Shown one piece after another: positions 2,748-46,785 of a stretch of DNA of 62,017 nucleotides. Made by a program: the position numbers and the translations under genes. The notes beneath the pieces were generated by a model, which saw only the letters and a list, made by a program, of their open reading frames with translations, made no database searches and was not told where the DNA came from. Each line of letters begins with the position of its first letter. Position 1 is the stretch's first letter. The stretch is taken from NCBI GenBank assembly GCA_945905765.1, contig CAMDPZ010000004.1, forward strand, positions 1 through 62,017, given 5' to 3'. The DNA is from Nitrospira lenta (lineage in GTDB: Bacteria > Nitrospirota > Nitrospiria > Nitrospirales > Nitrospiraceae).

Positions 2748-3923
2748 ATGTCTGGTTTCCCCATTGAAGTGGCCACCCGAATCAAAACCCTCCCTCCCTA
2801 TCTCTTTGCCGCCATCGACAAGATGAAGCAGGCAGCGATGGCCAAGGGAGTCGATATCATTAACTTAGGCATCGGCGATCCCGATCTGCCGACGCCGGCC
2901 CCGATTATCGAAAGCCTGGCGCAAGCCGCCAAGAATCCAAAGCACCATCAATATCCCTCCTATGAAGGCATGTTGTCGTTCCGGACGGCCGTCGCCGATT
3001 GGTACAAGCGCCGGTTCAACGTCACGCTGAACCCTGCCGACGAAGTGCTGACGTTGATCGGCTCGAAGGAAGGGATCGGCCATATCCACCTGGCCTTCGT
3101 CGATCCCGGCGATATCGTCTTAGTCCCAAGCCCCGGCTATCCGGTCTATCCGGTCGGCACCAGCTTCTGCGGCGGCATCTCGCACATCATGCCCCTCACC
3201 AAGGCCAACGGATTCCTGCCGGACCTCGATGCGATCCCGAAGGACGTGGCGAAGAAAGCCAAGTTGATGTGGTTGAACTCCCCGAACAACCCGACCTCGG
3301 TCATCATGAGCAAGGACTACTTCAAGCGCGTCGTCGAATTCGCCCGGGAGAACCAGATCATCGTCTGTCACGATGCGGCCTACTCGGAGATTTATTACGA
3401 CGGCAAACCTCCTGTCAGCTTCATGGAAATCGACGGCGCGAAGGATGTCGGCGTGGAGTTCCATTCGCTCTCCAAGACCTACAACATGACGGGCTGGCGG
3501 CTCGGATTCGTCGTCGGCAACAAGGACATCTTGGCCGGGCTGGGCAAGGTCAAGAGCCAGCTGGACTCAGGCGTGTTCGAAGCGGTGCAAGCCGCGGGGA
3601 TCACGGCGCTGGGCTTGGATGACTCAGTCACAGACGGCCTGCGCAAGATCTATCAGGAACGGCGCGACACCCTCGTCCCAGGCCTCAAGCAGCTCGGACT
3701 GGAAGTCGATTCGCCTCCTGCCGCCTTCTACATCTGGGTCACGGTGCCGAAGGGCTATACCTCCGCGTCCTTCACCGCTCATTTGCTGGAGAAGGCGGGA
3801 ATCGTCACGACGCCGGGCAACGGCTTCGGGGCGCCGGGCGAAGGCTATATCCGGATGACCGTGTGCACGACGAAAGAACGATTGGCGGAAGCGGTGGAGC
3901 GGATTAGAAAAGTAGGATTCTAG
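2748..3923 (+). CDS. dapL: LL-diaminopimelate aminotransferase
   Basis: PLP-dependent fold-type I aminotransferase (391 residues) expected to convert tetrahydrodipicolinate and glutamate to LL-diaminopimelate in one step, bypassing the succinylase or acetylase branch of lysine and peptidoglycan precursor synthesis. Family hallmarks are LPPYLFAAIDKMK near the start, NLGIGDPDLPTP (residues 40-51), the substrate loop WLNSPNNPTS, and the PLP lysine K243 in HSLSKTYNMTGWRLGF. ATG at 2748 follows AAGGAG at a workable distance. dapA, dapB and lysA lie together at 16-19 kb; no dapD or dapE is seen in the window, which fits the DapL route. A closely related alanine or aspartate aminotransferase cannot be fully excluded. 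Confidence 0.85.
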   Translation: MSGFPIEVATRIKTLPPYLFAAIDKMKQAAMAKGVDIINLGIGDPDLPTPAPIIESLAQAAKNPKHHQYPSYEGMLSFRTAVADWYKRRFNVTLNPADEVLTLIGSKEGIGHIHLAFVDPGDIVLVPSPGYPVYPVGTSFCGGISHIMPLTKANGFLPDLDAIPKDVAKKAKLMWLNSPNNPTSVIMSKDYFKRVVEFARENQIIVCHDAAYSEIYYDGKPPVSFMEIDGAKDVGVEFHSLSKTYNMTGWRLGFVVGNKDILAGLGKVKSQLDSGVFEAVQAAGITALGLDDSVTDGLRKIYQERRDTLVPGLKQLGLEVDSPPAAFYIWVTVPKGYTSASFTAHLLEKAGIVTTPGNGFGAPGEGYIRMTVCTTKERLAEAVERIRKVGF

Positions 3924-3927
3924 GCTG

Positions 3928-4014
3928 GGGGCGAGATGCCGTGGCGAAGGCTTGCTCGCGGAACGCGCACGATCAGAATGTGCTCGTTCGACGCGCGCAG
4001 TCGCCTCTCGCCCC
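3928..4014 (+). ncRNA. structured 3' element, copy 1, after dapL
   Basis: Starts 5 bases after the dapL stop. GGGGCGAGA (3928-3936) pairs perfectly with TCTCGCCCC (4006-4014), and a second stem GGCGA/TCGCC lies inside. The enclosed 49-base core (3953-4001) is about 80% identical, without gaps, to the core of the element at 11970-12053 when both are read in the direction of the upstream gene. It may be a terminator-like 3' structure, a small RNA, or a mobile palindromic unit. Confidence 0.55.
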
Positions 4015-4068
4015 GGCACCTCGTCTCACGGTGCGCCACGATCATCCTTCAGAAGAGAGTAAGAAAAG

Positions 4069-4626
4069 ATGGGACGCGAGACGGTCTTCATCGGGTTTGG
4101 CTCGAATGTCGGCGATCGGCTGGATTTCTGCGATCGAGCCGTGACATTGCTGAGCCTCTTGCCCCACTCCCAGCTCCTGGGCGTGTCGCTGCTCTATGAG
4201 ACAGAACCGGTGAACGACCATGCCCAGCCGGGAGACGGATGGTTCCTGAACGGCGTCGTGCAGATCGAGACGGATATCACGCCGAACAGCCTCTTAACGA
4301 TTCTACGAGAGATCGAGCGGGCGCTCGGCCGGGATGAAGAGAATCGATCGGGTCCCAGAACCATCGATCTGGACATTTTATTCTACGGCCAACGGATCAT
4401 CGACGAGCCGGATCTCGCTGTGCCTCATCCTCGCATGCACCAACGCCGGTTCGTCCTCATGCCCTTGAACGAGCTCGATCCGCTGTTCCTGCATCCCTCG
4501 CTTCAACGTACAGTCAGTCAGTTGCTTGCCGAGGCGGGGAAACAACCGGAAGTCCGTCTCCTGTTTCCGCAACCCTCGACTCGCTATGGCTCACGCCCCG
4601 CTTGCAGCCAGTCGCCAGGCTCATGA
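4069..4626 (+). CDS. folK: 2-amino-4-hydroxy-6-hydroxymethyldihydropteridine diphosphokinase
   Basis: HPPK of the folate pathway; transfers pyrophosphate from ATP to the hydroxymethyl pterin. The N-terminal FIGFGSNVGDR, the LYETEPV loop, the NGVVQIET strand and the signature GPRTIDLDILFYG with VPHPRMHQRRFVLMPL are all present. At 185 residues it is slightly longer than the usual 155-165 because of a C-terminal tail of about 20 residues. It overlaps panC by the ATGA at 4623-4626, so the two are probably translated together, joining folate and pantothenate synthesis. Confidence 0.93.
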   Translation: MGRETVFIGFGSNVGDRLDFCDRAVTLLSLLPHSQLLGVSLLYETEPVNDHAQPGDGWFLNGVVQIETDITPNSLLTILREIERALGRDEENRSGPRTIDLDILFYGQRIIDEPDLAVPHPRMHQRRFVLMPLNELDPLFLHPSLQRTVSQLLAEAGKQPEVRLLFPQPSTRYGSRPACSQSPGS

Positions 4627-10600: not shown

Positions 10601-11929
10601 CTACCGCACGAGGAGGAGGTAAAGATCATTCACGTTCGTGCCGGTGGGGCCAGTGACGATGAGCTGATCGAGCTTCTTCAAAGCCGGATAGGTATTGTGG
10701 CCCTTCAGGGCCCCTGCGAGATTTACCTGAAGCCGCTGCGCTCGGGCCACCGTGCCGCCGTCGACCACGGCACCAGCCGCATCGGTCGGACCATCGGTCC
10801 CATCGGTGCCGATCGCTACGACCCACACCTCGGCCAGACCGGCGATTTCCAGCGCGGCGGCGGTCGCGAATTCCTGCGCCCGCCCGCCTGTGCCCCTCCC
10901 CGTCACGGTCACGGTGGTTTCGCCACCGGCCACGAGACAGCAGGGTTTGCGCACCGGTCTACCCTTGCGCAACAGCGTCTTCGCCCTGGCGCCAAACCGC
11001 TGCCCCGCCTCACGAGCCTCTCCGGTTATGGCCTCTTGCACGATAGTCAGAAAACCAGCCTCCCTGGCTGCGCGGGCGACAGCCCTGACCGCCACTCCGT
11101 TATTCCCGACGATATGCTGGCGGACACGACGGAATAAAGGGGAGCCTGGCTTCGGCGTTTCACTCACAAGACCCCGGCAGCCCCGGTCGAGATGCTGCCG
11201 TACTCGTTGCGGGACCGTCATCCAGATACGATAGCGCTTTAAAATCGCAATCGCGTCGCAATACGTCGTGGGGTCTGGAACCGTCGGCCCCGATGCGATG
11301 GTGCTGAGGTCGTCCCCCAACACATCGGACAGGATCAGCGTCACCACGGTGGCATCGCTCAGCTCAGCGAGCCGTCCGCCTTTAATGCGCGAGAGGTGTT
11401 TGCGAACGGTATTGATGTCACGAATGGTCGCGCCGCAACGCAGAAGTTTTTCTGTGGTCCGTTGCTTGTCGGCTAACGTCACCCCTGCGACAGGAGCCGG
11501 CAAGAGACTGGAGGCGCCGCCGGACAGGAGCACGATCAAGAGATCGCGCCGCCCGAGTGCTGACACCATGGCGCAGAGCTTGGCTGCCGCGCGCTGACCT
11601 GACCGGTCGGGAACCGGATGGCCTGCTTCCGCCACGAGGATCCGTTTCATCGGCAGGCCATGGCCCTGCTTCACCACGATAAACCCGCTGTGCAACCAAT
11701 GGCCCAGCCTCTGCTCTACCGCCTGGGCCATCGGAGCCGTGGCCTTGCCTGCTCCGACCACGACCACCCGTTCATAGTTGTTCAAATCGTATCGGCGGCG
11801 GCCGATGGTGAGAGCCGCTCCGTCCCTGGAAATGGCGCGGCCGACCGCCGCATAGGCGTCGACCGCGTCCAGTCCTCGACTGAGTATTTTCTTTAGCAGT
11901 GGCTTGATAGGAGAGGAAGGAATCTGCAT
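10601..11929 (-). CDS. gckA: glycerate 2-kinase (GckA/MOFRL family)
   Basis: 442 residues of the DUF4147/MOFRL glycerate kinase family, which phosphorylates D-glycerate to 2-phosphoglycerate. Diagnostic segments: VVVVGAGKATAPMAQAVE, GHPVPDRSGQRAA, LIVLLSGGASSLLPAPV, NTVRKHLSRIKGGRLA, LILSDVLGDDLSTIASGPT, and at the C-terminus VAGGETTVTVTGRGTGGRAQE and AIGTDGTDGPTDAAGA. It starts the pair with the phosphotransferase-like gene. A 2-phosphoglycerate product would feed enolase and PEP. Confidence 0.88.
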   Translation of the reverse strand: MQIPSSPIKPLLKKILSRGLDAVDAYAAVGRAISRDGAALTIGRRRYDLNNYERVVVVGAGKATAPMAQAVEQRLGHWLHSGFIVVKQGHGLPMKRILVAEAGHPVPDRSGQRAAAKLCAMVSALGRRDLLIVLLSGGASSLLPAPVAGVTLADKQRTTEKLLRCGATIRDINTVRKHLSRIKGGRLAELSDATVVTLILSDVLGDDLSTIASGPTVPDPTTYCDAIAILKRYRIWMTVPQRVRQHLDRGCRGLVSETPKPGSPLFRRVRQHIVGNNGVAVRAVARAAREAGFLTIVQEAITGEAREAGQRFGARAKTLLRKGRPVRKPCCLVAGGETTVTVTGRGTGGRAQEFATAAALEIAGLAEVWVVAIGTDGTDGPTDAAGAVVDGGTVARAQRLQVNLAGALKGHNTYPALKKLDQLIVTGPTGTNVNDLYLLLVR

Positions 11930-11969
11930 CGGACTGCTGATGGGCTCGCTGGATATATTATCTTACGAT

Positions 11970-12053
11970 GGTCCGGTGAGTCCCCCACTGCGCGCGTCCA
12001 ACGAGGGCCTTCTCAGACCGCGCGTTGCGCGAGCACAGGGGACTCGCCGGACC
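11970..12053 (-). ncRNA. structured 3' element, copy 2, after the transglycosylase homologue
   Basis: Begins 10 bases after the stop of the transglycosylase-like gene. GGTCCGGTGAGTCCCC (11970-11985) pairs with GGGGACTCGCCGGACC (12038-12053) with one mismatch. The 49-base core at 11987-12035 aligns without gaps to the core of the dapL element at about 80% identity, while the outer stems are unrelated in sequence. In the core, CAACG/CGTTG here replaces GAACG/CGTTC there, so the pair is kept. Confidence 0.55.
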
Positions 12054-12062
12054 AGCCCCCCG

Positions 12063-13121
12063 TTAGGGGGCCTTCTCCTGCTTGAAGCACCGAGTCGGAC
12101 AGCTTTGCCGCGGGACTCGCATCTGATAGACCCCACGCGGGAGCGCATCCTTTTTGAACTCAGGATTCAACATCTTAAGTTCAAGGAAATAGGTCCCGAA
12201 TTCCTCGGCAATCGAGGTGAGGGCTCGCTGAGAATCTTTCACATTGATGGTAACCGTTTCGGTTTCCATCGGCATGTAGAGGTCCTTCTTGCTGAGCCCC
12301 AAATACTTCTCCGGCTGCGAGTAGATTTCCTTGGCGGCAATGATGCGCGGAACATAGCGCATCGTTTCCCGCGGCCCATGCATCTTCCAATAGTCGGTAA
12401 TGTTCTGTTCCTTCAGGAGCCGGCGCACTCGCTCTTCTCCGGCATTGTACGAGGCCATGGCCATGAACCAATCGTTCTTCTCAAAGTCCTTGAGATAGCG
12501 CAAATACTTGACCGCCGCTTCCGTCGACATTTCCAAATTGCGACGTTCGTCAAGAACCTCGTCGCTCTTGAGGCGATAGCGCTTCCCGGTGGAGGGGATA
12601 AACTGCCAGGGGCCCGAGGCTTTTGCCTTTGAATAGGCGGCGGCCACGCACTTGCTCTTCACCAGCAACATGTACTTGAGATCGTCCGGCAATCCGGCCT
12701 CAGCCAGCTGCTTTTCGGCTGGAGGGAAACAGCGCCCGGTGCGCTTGGCCAGGATGATGCTTTCGCCCTGATCTTCCAAGAACTGATAGAACTCGTACTC
12801 GATGCGTTCGCGCACCTGCCAGTTATCGAGAGGGACCGGCTTGCCGGCAAAGGTCAATTTATCAGGCAGCTTAAACGAACTGAGGAAGTAGCGGTCGCCT
12901 TCTCGCTTAATTTCAGGAAGGATGACGAGACGCCCCTCTGACTCGTTGGGATTATCGAGGGGATCGATCAACCCCAGATCGCGCTCAAGGTCACCATTCA
13001 CTCCAGCATGCGGCGTACTTTCCTTCACCGCAGGCTGCGGTTGAGTCCCTGCTGAAACCGGGAGCGTGACGGCCATCCACAAGCCACTGATCACTAATGC
13101 GCGCTGAGCCCGCGTCGTCAT
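12063..13121 (-). CDS. lytic transglycosylase (MltD-like) homologue lacking the catalytic Glu
   Basis: 352 residues: signal peptide (residues 1-24), a linker, an SLT domain (about 100-290) and a weak LysM-like C-terminus (SIAEEFGTYFLELKMLNP). The SLT motifs SGPWQFIPSTGKRY and ASYNAGEERVRR are intact, and MRYVPRIIAAKEIYSQP matches MltD-type enzymes. However, the motif normally reading [IV]-E-S reads LVKSKC: Lys155 (codon 12657-12659, AAG) stands where the catalytic glutamate belongs, a single G-to-A step from GAG. The protein may bind peptidoglycan without cutting it, or the base may be a sequencing error. It is followed by structured element copy 2. Confidence 0.85.
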   Translation of the reverse strand: MTTRAQRALVISGLWMAVTLPVSAGTQPQPAVKESTPHAGVNGDLERDLGLIDPLDNPNESEGRLVILPEIKREGDRYFLSSFKLPDKLTFAGKPVPLDNWQVRERIEYEFYQFLEDQGESIILAKRTGRCFPPAEKQLAEAGLPDDLKYMLLVKSKCVAAAYSKAKASGPWQFIPSTGKRYRLKSDEVLDERRNLEMSTEAAVKYLRYLKDFEKNDWFMAMASYNAGEERVRRLLKEQNITDYWKMHGPRETMRYVPRIIAAKEIYSQPEKYLGLSKKDLYMPMETETVTINVKDSQRALTSIAEEFGTYFLELKMLNPEFKKDALPRGVYQMRVPRQSCPTRCFKQEKAP

Positions 13122-13243: not shown

Positions 13244-13966
13244 ATGCGCGCACTCACTCTCCTCAACGATCGCATCGCCGGCTGTACTATCTGCCCTCGG
13301 CTCGTCGCCTATCGAAACACGGTCGCGGCGGAAAAACGAAAGCAGTTTGAAGACTGGACCTATTGGGGGAAACCGGTCCCGGGGTTCGGAGACCCCCAGG
13401 CCCGCCTCTACGTGCTCGGACTTGCGCCGGCCGCCCATGGCGGCAATCGAACCGGGCGGATGTTTACCGGCGATCGCAGCGGGGATTGGCTCTATGACGC
13501 CTTGCATCGATTCGGCTTCGCCAATCAAGCCGCCTCGCACCACCGAGACGATGGACTGAAGCTGTCGGATTGCTACATCGGCGCGACGGTCCGCTGTGCG
13601 CCGCCTGATAATAAGCCGGCTCCTGAAGAGTTCACGGCCTGCCGGCCCTATCTGCGGGAGGAACTGAAACTGTTACGGAACACCCAGGTGGTGGTAGCTC
13701 TGGGCAAGATTGCCTTCGATCACTATCTGAGGGCTTGTCGCGATGAGGGGCTGAAACTCCCCTCACCGCTCCCGAAGTTTTCCCATGGAGTCGTCAAAGC
13801 ACTTCCCTGGGGCATCACGCTAATCGGCTCCTACCATCCGAGCCAGCAAAACACTTTTACCGGACTCTTAACCCGCCCGATGTTTCAGCACATTTTTTCC
13901 ACGGCACGCCAGCGACTCACCGAATCAACAGGCACTCGAACCAGCAAGGCCGCAGCACACACATAA
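13244..13966 (+). CDS. uracil-DNA glycosylase, family 5 (UdgB-like)
   Basis: 240 residues. N-terminal iron-sulfur cysteines CTICPRL, then the family 5 motif GLAPAAHGGNRTGRMFTGD and the C-terminal motif SYHPSQQNTFTG. A second cysteine area is DCYIGATVRCAPP. Family 4/5 enzymes remove uracil and, for family 5, hypoxanthine and other deaminated bases from DNA; family 5 lacks the polar catalytic residue of motif A, as seen here (GLAPAAHG). It stands alone on the plus strand, divergent from the transglycosylase homologue. Confidence 0.88.
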   Translation: MRALTLLNDRIAGCTICPRLVAYRNTVAAEKRKQFEDWTYWGKPVPGFGDPQARLYVLGLAPAAHGGNRTGRMFTGDRSGDWLYDALHRFGFANQAASHHRDDGLKLSDCYIGATVRCAPPDNKPAPEEFTACRPYLREELKLLRNTQVVVALGKIAFDHYLRACRDEGLKLPSPLPKFSHGVVKALPWGITLIGSYHPSQQNTFTGLLTRPMFQHIFSTARQRLTESTGTRTSKAAAHT

Positions 13967-13967
13967 C

Positions 13968-14057
13968 TGTGAACGCTGAACGATGAAACGAGATTAGCTT
14001 CCTCGTTCATCGCTCGCCGTCTCCTGGCCTGGCGGACTTTTTCAGCAGCCCGCTAGA
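13968..14057. repeat. intergenic repeats: GAACGATGA units and half of an inverted-repeat element
   Basis: Between the convergent glycosylase and transaldolase genes. CGATGAAACGAG and CTCGTTCATCG form an imperfect inverted repeat. Directly after it, 14031-14057 reads GGCGGACTTTTTCAGCAGCC then CGCTAGA, which matches the right arm of the element at 46657-46785 with only a few changes; no matching left arm is present. The pair may act as a bidirectional terminator. Confidence 0.5.
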
Positions 14058-14059
14058 TA

Positions 14060-14707
14060 TTATTTTTTGGCCTGGGCTTCCCAATCCGCCAAAAACTTCT
14101 TGAGGCCGATATCGGTCAAGGGATGTTTCACCATCTGCTGAAAGATCGAGAAGGGCATCGTACAAATGTGCCCCCCGATCAGCGCGGCCTCGACCACATG
14201 CTGAGGATGGCGCACACTGGCAACCAACACCTGGGTTTTATAATCGTAATTGCGGTAGATGGTCAAAATCTGACGGATCAGCTCCATCCCGTTCGAGCTG
14301 ATGTCGTCGAGCCGGCCGATGAAGGGGGACACGCACCAGGCGCCGGCTTTCGCCGCTAGAAGCGCTTGAGTCGGAGAGAAGCAGAGGGTGACGTTCACCT
14401 TGATGCCTTCGGCAGCCAATCGTTTAGTGGCCTTCAATCCCTCCGCAATCAAGGGCACCTTCACGACGATATTCTTATGGATCTTCGCGAGCTCCTTCCC
14501 TTCCTTCACCATGTCATCGGCCTCAAGGCTGACGACTTCTGCGCTGATCGGCCCATCCACAATCTTGCAAATCTCAACCAGCATTTCCTTGAAGCTGCGC
14601 CCTTCCTTTGCCACGAGCGACGGATTCGTGGTCACTCCGTCGAGCAGTCCCAGGCTGGCTGCTTCCTGAATTTCTTTCACGTTGGCGGTATCAAGAAAAA
14701 ACTTCAT
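14060..14707 (-). CDS. tal: transaldolase / fructose-6-phosphate aldolase-like (TalC type)
   Basis: 215 residues, the short class of transaldolase. [16 protein letters not shown] and [17 protein letters not shown] are the standard N-terminus, and the Schiff-base lysine is K83 in [41 protein letters not shown] and [16 protein letters not shown] complete the barrel. It moves a dihydroxyacetone unit between sugar phosphates in the non-oxidative pentose phosphate pathway; an aldolase role cannot be told apart by sequence reading. Monocistronic. Confidence 0.88.
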
Positions 14708-46656: not shown

Positions 46657-46785
46657 GGCAGGATGCTGAAAAAGGCCGCCCAGCAAGGCCGCAGCCGATG
46701 GAAACACCGGAGGCGTAGCCCCTGGCTACGTTGAGGATGCTTTCGAGGCGAGAACGAAGCTGGCGGCCTTTTTCGGCATCCTGCC
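46657..46785. repeat. 129-bp inverted-repeat element
   Basis: The 24-base left arm (46657-46680, beginning GGCAGGATGCTG) and right arm (46762-46785, beginning GGCGGCCTTTTTCGG) are inverted copies with one mismatch. The centre has its own hairpin, CGTAGCC/GGCTACG around CCT. No open frame inside. Half of the same arm occurs at 14031-14057. The layout suits a MITE-like or REP-like element. It ends 2 bases before the stop of the PCP_red gene. Confidence 0.7.

Follow-up and report, generated by a model that had tools for sequence, protein, structure and literature searches.

What follows the dapL-like gene of Nitrospira lenta, and why does a relative of the same sequence follow a second gene in the window, the 62,017-nt stretch of DNA analysed here? 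The original prediction, made from the letters, placed a self-folding element at positions 3928-4014, five bases after the stop of the dapL-like gene, and a related one at 11970-12053, within 10 bases of the stop of a second gene, and took them either for an RNA repeated in 3' UTRs or for a mobile palindromic unit that favours gene ends. The aminotransferase gene that precedes element 1 (2748..3923, plus strand; PF00155; the name dapL stems from that prediction) has its last base at 3923, and the Transglycosylase SLT-domain gene that precedes element 2 (12063..13121, minus strand; PF01464) ends at 12063. Element 1 as given starts five bases after the first of these stops and element 2, on the minus strand, nine bases after the second, so that both elements do begin within 10 bases of a stop and in the same orientation to the preceding gene. 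The first gene past element 1 is a folK-like HPPK gene (4069..4626, plus strand; PF01288), and that past element 2 a DUF4147/MOFRL gene (10601..11929, minus strand).

Two hairpins of the window and their family

The apical cores of the two elements lie at 3953..4001 (plus strand; T.C and C.T mismatches and a GA bulge in an alignment of 26 copies) and at 11987..12035 (minus strand; from sequence, motif probe and alignment). They can be aligned without gaps, and a hand count returned the predicted 39 of 49 like positions. Self-folding was likewise borne out, as the RNA folds of both elements beat those of shuffled sequences (z -3.2 and -6.0). The outer stem proposed for element 1, GGGGCGAGA/TCTCGCCCC, did not hold: it arises only when the short segment is folded alone and is broken at one or more pairs in all eight other orthologs of alignment A3 (by inspection). 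This stem is specific to the N. lenta genome, while a longer one is retained in orthologs. With flanks (3924-4040, z -4.1 against shuffles), the longer fold appears, and 3924..4032 on the plus strand (MFE -66 kcal/mol, z -4.1) is the better extent of the entire hairpin, comprising outer arms and core and resting on folding, the covariance model and orthologs. The entire hairpin of element 2 spans 11967..12058 on the minus strand (folding and covariance model). Alignment A3 holds nine of the 12 element-bearing dapL sites (L141, L142 and L143 have other arms or an insert and were omitted), and 92.2% of the cells of the longer fold are paired over these nine sequences. Five pairs changed on both sides, which 3 of 500 shuffles reach; 20 of 44 pairs are invariant, 16 deviate through unpaired cells alone, and the 10 further pair types show no excess over the shuffled mean of 10.0.

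Probing the window alone with a 16-base core motif (up to 3 mismatches) gave 8 matches against 4.85 expected, a number reached by 12 of 100 shuffles, and a probe for the 3' half of the core gave 2 against 0.49 expected; inside the window alone, neither excess is significant. The covariance-model search by which the prediction could be checked, with a model built from 26 copies, did find the repeat: 84 matches in the N. lenta genome resolve into 70 forward copies and 14 antisense shadows of the same sites, and further copies were found in related genomes. The window copies score E 3.2e-20 and 8.9e-25, both being part of the training set. The 16-base core motif occurs 51 times exactly in the N. 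lenta genome and 93 times at up to 2 mismatches, as opposed to 13 times for a reversed control. Both window elements belong to a real dispersed repeat family, with hairpins of ~90-109 nt.

Model matches were present in all 31 genus relatives (lowest count 17; in 22 of them, copies were counted among the best 66 candidates scored) and in all five genomes searched from the family's other genera, which hold 2, 8, 19, 35 and 22 copies; two of 24 order-level genomes had one match apiece. These two lone copies (L398 in G049, L399 in G055) come from a sister family within the order, have a longer apical loop and are possibly old or transferred. Among the wider loci, some of which overlap, a fuzzy core match was seen in 23 of 24. 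When named species genomes were scanned for the exact pattern, at least 118 stretches with it were returned; among the matches listed (80 loci), all titles read Nitrospira, Nitrospiraceae, Nitrospirae or Nitrospirota, including Candidatus Nitrospira defluvii, and on these matches the family has so far been met almost only in this bacterial lineage. At its gathering score, Rfam found a tRNA in the window and no match to the element, and against five element loci its best hit reached 32 bits, with a gathering score of 100. The searched open-licence literature on palindromic, REP and hairpin repeats yielded no published description of this repeat family; a table in the excerpted RepRanger paper includes N. 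moscoviensis. Several contigs of the N. lenta assembly G000 (C87, C91, C49, C109, C20, C6, C8) end in, or ~500 bases from, an element or core match. The repeat may therefore interrupt assemblies, and the true number of copies may be higher than the count given here.

Anatomy of the unit and its place behind genes

Each unit has an apical core, marked by a bulge and by conserved mismatches, within a long outer stem that varies between copies yet pairs with itself. In order, the core consists of TGC, a T.C mismatch, a CGCG helix, a GA bulge on the 3' side, an SAACG helix, a C.T mismatch and the apical hairpin. The unpaired T30, C70, C40, T58, G64 and A65 are invariant in the 26-copy alignment, which leaves aside the copies of L007, L008 and L012 that are broken or nested, as well as the second copy of L021; for T30 and C40 this is so by construction, since the copies were chosen by an exact 16-base match, whereas C70, T58, G64 and A65 fall outside the selection probe. 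In a wider set, the core helix covaries (columns 47/172: A-U 59, G-C 10, C-G 8).

Identity of the 5' arms averages 0.40 among the 26 copies, and over both arms of 309 elements the median is 0.46. Double-changed cells nonetheless number 80 in the 26 copies versus 29 when shuffled, and 319 in alignment A4 (77 distinct rows, fitted to the structure and including 7 antisense rows) versus 93 (sd 10) when shuffled and 42-73 for slid structures. Arms pair with their own partners at a mean of -35.7 kcal/mol and with unrelated ones at -18.1; the own partner was better than all sampled unrelated partners in 224 of the 309 elements and failed to beat them all in 85. Within the 26-copy set, it was best in 17, the remaining nine being outdone by arms from similar copies. 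Clustering at 75% identity, moreover, sorts the arms into 131 groups of related sequences, the largest with 45 members. Insertion of the core alone into the loops of pre-existing terminators would be an attractive explanation for the differing arms, but the G015 ortholog of C13:33079 lacks the whole unit and has no palindrome at that site (by eye; z 0.9). Since the arms are absent there together with the core, and since they fall into related groups, we consider them part of the unit.

When positions were mapped relative to stops, using gene calls from a simple codon model, 43 of 69 copies (the 70 model matches minus C49, for which there was no locus) started within 60 nt after a same-strand stop, in support of the predicted preference for gene ends. 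The other 26 lie farther behind a same-strand gene (8), behind an opposite-strand gene (15, one of them within 60 nt) or in loci without an upstream gene (3). Among the 35 exact copies of the N. lenta genome, a stop within 60 nt was found on the sense side only for 21, on both sides for two, on the antisense side only for none and on neither side for 12; the corresponding figures for 78 exact copies in named loci are 37, 1, 0 and 40. Pooled, the 113 copies (16 more near locus ends were set aside) comprise 58 with a sense-only gene end, none with an antisense-only one and 52 with neither. None of these 35 and 78 copies lies inside a gene called by the simple gene caller. That the orientation is fixed at gene ends speaks for a connection of some kind with the transcript or the gene strand. 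Copies in relatives, pairing and a non-random placement, on which the original prediction hinged, were thus all found.

By protein-family assignment, copies sit between nuoA and nuoB, nuoCD and nuoE, atpD and atpC, and sucC and sucD, and further ones between folD and an MTHFR-family gene and between a GatB-domain gene and enolase. A purS gene is flanked by copies on both sides, its downstream neighbour purQ being our own reading of the sequence. Co-transcription of the nuo, atp and suc runs is judged here from gene order.

Turnover, nesting and tip exchange

At the dapL site, the element is present in 12 of 20 genus loci and replaced by other sequence, mostly other palindromes by eye, in eight; at order level it is found in 0 of 10 loci (the partial dapL genes of G002, G014 and G022 gave no locus for the count). 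At the SLT site, 21 genus loci that include a 3' end were read by eye: six hold the element, ten hold shells resembling a second palindrome family, B (one incomplete; L167, L168 and L174 are among these by-eye readings), and five hold something else or nothing, with L182-L184 read as lacking the element. Other long palindromes were seen by eye at the same gene ends in relatives, namely in L131, L144 and L146-L149 (dapL), L209 and L210 (nuoCD) and L217 (atpD); those occupying the dapL, nuoCD and atpD ends are of the GTGAGGCGTGAGGGG, AAAGTAAAAATGTG and GTGAAAAGTGAAACG types.

For 43 gene ends of N. lenta, comparison with the close relatives G001 and G015 gave 77 comparisons, plus nine without an ortholog. 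The element was called in 37 of the 77 (36 after an eye check, as C97 in G001 is a family-B hairpin), with arms at least 70% identical on average in 28 of the 37 calls, and it was absent in 40, although the fuzzy ortholog search may overlook other diverged copies and part of the sites was judged from the table only. At these 40 element-less sites, z lay below -2 in 12 (below -3 in nine) and above -2 in 28. Drift of one ancestral stem as the sole process is ruled out by six sites with the core in both N. lenta and G001 but different self-pairing arms (C72, C13:36430, C29, C1:78343, C27:7003, C80): the own arm pairs with the partner from the other genome at -14 to -23 kcal/mol, while true partners reach -22 to -55. 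Replacement therefore occurs as well. Between close relatives, whole elements, their arms or their tips disappear or give way to others, and this loss, gain and replacement supports the mobile-unit half of the original prediction; an RNA role has fared less well, for reasons given below.

The unit can also replace or occupy the tips of other hairpins, in the manner of Russian dolls. Five inner elements lie inside the apical loop of another element (C25:6335, C26:8834, C8:4346, C41:15413, C83:6618), and the outer arms still pair across the insert at -37.0 to -42.5 kcal/mol, with 0 or 1 of 309 foreign 3' arms doing equally well. In two of the seven nests or tip replacements examined (C91:1876 and C57:6211), a different palindrome occupies the tip and the outer arms pair weakly or not at all. 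The second of these, at 2489-2680 of locus L072, is a chimeric element whose 5' and 3' arms are unpaired and whose tip carries a GTCTGTCTGGT-type palindrome.

Family B is represented in the window by a full copy at 46657..46785 (GCAGGATGCTGAAAAAG...CTTTTTCGGCATCCTGC, with 24-nt arms that are 96% complementary), and elsewhere in the N. lenta genome it forms a shell around some copies of the element. A GCAGGCTGCTGAAA-like family-B motif (up to 3 substitutions) precedes 13 of 69 copies, and the inverted partner (again up to 3 substitutions) follows in 10 of the 13; among the three without it, C80 is an apparent chance motif inside a gene. In G001, the orthologous sites of C28:21088, C97, C39 and C26:15381 have a B shell that holds a B tip instead, and at the SLT site of G003 (L164), arms and core halves of the element enclose yet another palindrome as the tip. 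A family-B-like sequence of the window at 13940-14053, which follows the gene at 14060-14707 on the minus strand, has a different tip (GAACGATGAAACGAG...CTCGTTCATCG) and resembles another tip swap.

Strand asymmetry and possible mechanisms

The mismatches that remain in the arms differ between the strands. With arms aligned so as not to favour wobble pairs, the mRNA strand of 294 elements has 370 A.C, 104 G.U, 57 C.C and 11 G.G mismatches, and clustering at 75% arm identity (131 clusters) leaves 154 A.C and 48 G.U. Under looser single-linkage clustering the ratio holds while power drops (A.C:G.U of 55:15 in 44 clusters, 21:6 in 22 and 2.2:0.3 in 5). Changes between close orthologs, by comparison, comprise 29 G.T and 23 A.C (42 directed comparisons, in which some may be counted twice), which differs from the standing 48:154 at a Fisher p of 1.7e-5 (0.21 with the 5-cluster counts). 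Accordingly, the A.C excess does not look like mutational input, and such an origin is further opposed by the lack of a strong skew at the four-fold sites in 17 genes of the window (G 1391, C 1364, T 327, A 275). Folded as single-stranded DNA, the complementary strand is the more stable one in 285 of 307 elements and in both window copies; it folds better in 235 versus 69 cases for the arms alone and in 297 versus 11 for the core, the latter not being independent cases since the core is one shared sequence. Folded as RNA, antisense was better in 205 and sense in 102 of 309 elements, while both window copies go against this trend. Among 75 family-B shells, whose orientation is ambiguous, we counted 24 G.U and 56 A.C. 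This tilt has the same direction, so the element family may not be alone in its asymmetry; 13 tRNA acceptor stems, too small a sample, had 3 G.U and 0 A.C. The asymmetry is suggestive either of pairing that is used or maintained on the complement of the mRNA strand, or of a mismatch preference in the repair of mRNA-strand hairpins.

How do these observations bear on what the hairpins do? Were they cis-acting RNA elements between cistrons or at 3' ends that protect, process or tune the mRNA and are kept by selection on the sense RNA, this would accommodate the orientation fixed with the transcript, the copies between cistrons of the nuo, atp and suc runs, the very stable RNA fold (better in sense than in antisense for both window copies) and the finding that some of these gene ends carry different long palindromes in relatives. 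Yet selection on the sense RNA fold predicts the opposite of the A.C excess over G.U, fresh ortholog changes do not carry that bias, and z below -2 at just 12 of 40 element-less orthologous sites implies that a hairpin is not generally required there. For the RNA half of the original prediction, the mismatches thus speak against and the fixed orientation speaks for a link to transcript or gene strand, and we hold such an mRNA function as a tentative option, somewhat doubtful on balance. That the hairpins are plain intrinsic transcription terminators sharing a loop sequence by chance is very improbable: a GC-rich hairpin right after stops and in transcript orientation looks the part, but a T-run after the stem is missing in most copies (by eye), the core is conserved beyond what a terminator needs, and the copies within the nuo, atp and suc runs, taken as operons from gene order, disfavour this explanation.

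Alternatively, the complementary strand may fold as single-stranded DNA and be recognised by a recombinase or transposase, as are attC bottom strands or REP/IS200 ends. The stability of this strand as DNA, also for the arms alone and for both window copies, its residual mismatches, which are more often G.T, G.G and G.A, and the core mismatches and bulge, which recall the bulge needed by TnpA_REP (PMC8266576, excerpt) and the extrahelical bases of attC (PMC2727003, excerpt), are all in keeping with such a substrate. Against it, Y1_Tnp, the REP-type transposase, is not detected in the N. lenta genome; of the 23 genus genomes searched it is missing from 11, each of which bears elements (several of these assemblies being incomplete), and an integron integrase scored above cut-off in just 3 of 37 genomes, N. 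lenta not among them. Moreover, the preference of the core stems from one shared sequence, and strand-biased repair of mRNA-strand hairpins would give the same mismatches, to which family B leans likewise. We therefore deem a dedicated strand-specific DNA substrate unlikely.

The reading we prefer, with a probability of roughly 0.7, is a dispersed, non-autonomous palindromic family, REP- or MITE-like, at gene 3' ends. Its most likely account is one of modular palindromes kept behind genes, with tips and arms exchanged through hairpin intermediates. Copies would spread via a single-stranded DNA hairpin, and breaks or template switches at extruded hairpins might allow palindromes to exchange tips, while the arms could stay complementary because one is copied from the other, because pairing is selected for, or for both reasons. 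A putative factor would recognise the core mismatches, the element would survive just behind stops because it harms neither reading frame nor promoter there, and the hairpin probably has a mild effect on the mRNA between cistrons, as a barrier or processing site. Two facts are poorly explained by hairpin exchange. Mere tolerance at gene ends does not explain the fixed orientation, which counts against the REP- or MITE-like account, and the asymmetry of the mismatches indicates a strand-specific process outside it; a new mechanism could hide there. Also counting against this account are the 26 of 69 copies farther than 60 nt from a same-strand stop or without one upstream, the 52 of 113 exact copies away from any gene end, and the mover, sought as Y1_Tnp and not found in the N. 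lenta genome. One such mechanism, which we rate as distinctly improbable, would be a genome-wide set of nestable single-stranded DNA hairpin sites, at which a putative strand-specific enzyme would read the core in the complement of the mRNA strand and exchange hairpin tips, or insert one into another, at gene ends, using neither a REP transposase nor an integron integrase.

Nitrospira, an important group of nitrifiers, are difficult to grow. A repeat present at tens of copies per genome, some of them between genes for subunits of respiratory complexes and ATP synthase, may shape expression, and it complicates assembly. Besides, its conserved tip, self-complementary variable arms, fixed orientation and nesting make it a testable case of how palindromes originate, maintain pairing and exchange parts in bacteria.

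Compared with known systems, the element shares features with several and is filed as a member of none, since size and transposase set it apart from REP-RAYT systems, shared ends from MITEs and the integrase from integrons. Like REP/BIME repeats with TnpA_REP (RAYT), it forms many extragenic palindromes per genome that may touch stops and hairpins with conserved mismatches, and REPs inserted within other palindromes are on record (PMC3733652, excerpt). Unlike these repeats, it combines a conserved tip with variable arms and a fixed orientation at gene ends, and at ~90-109 nt it exceeds the 14-40 nt of E. coli REPs (PMC12306157, excerpt). Membership in REP-RAYT was rejected on the distribution of Y1_Tnp given above and because, at E up to 1, no copy was found in 12 Y1_Tnp loci (8 genus, 4 order; of 38 matches; 33.7 kb in total). 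With MITE-like repeats such as NEMIS, ERIC and Nezha, which are described as transcribed and acting on adjoining mRNA (PMC3733652, excerpt), it has in common a length of ~100 nt, a non-coding nature, a place beside genes and strong hairpins. It differs from them in its variable outer arms and conserved centre and in that no partner transposon was found; the terminal inverted repeats that copies of a MITE have in common are not seen, given the median arm identity of 0.46, and reading orthologous sites that lack the element by eye established no target-site duplication. Sites of the attC type resemble the element in lying behind genes in fixed orientation, and they have conserved ends and a variable tip. 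The element, with its conserved tip and variable arms, is the reverse of this, and it is set in housekeeping gene runs rather than in cassettes; integron membership was rejected on the rarity of the integrase. A second parallel concerns the strand: the bottom strand of attC, with its extrahelical bases, is the substrate (PMC2727003, excerpt), and the complementary strand of the element is likewise computed to fold better as DNA.
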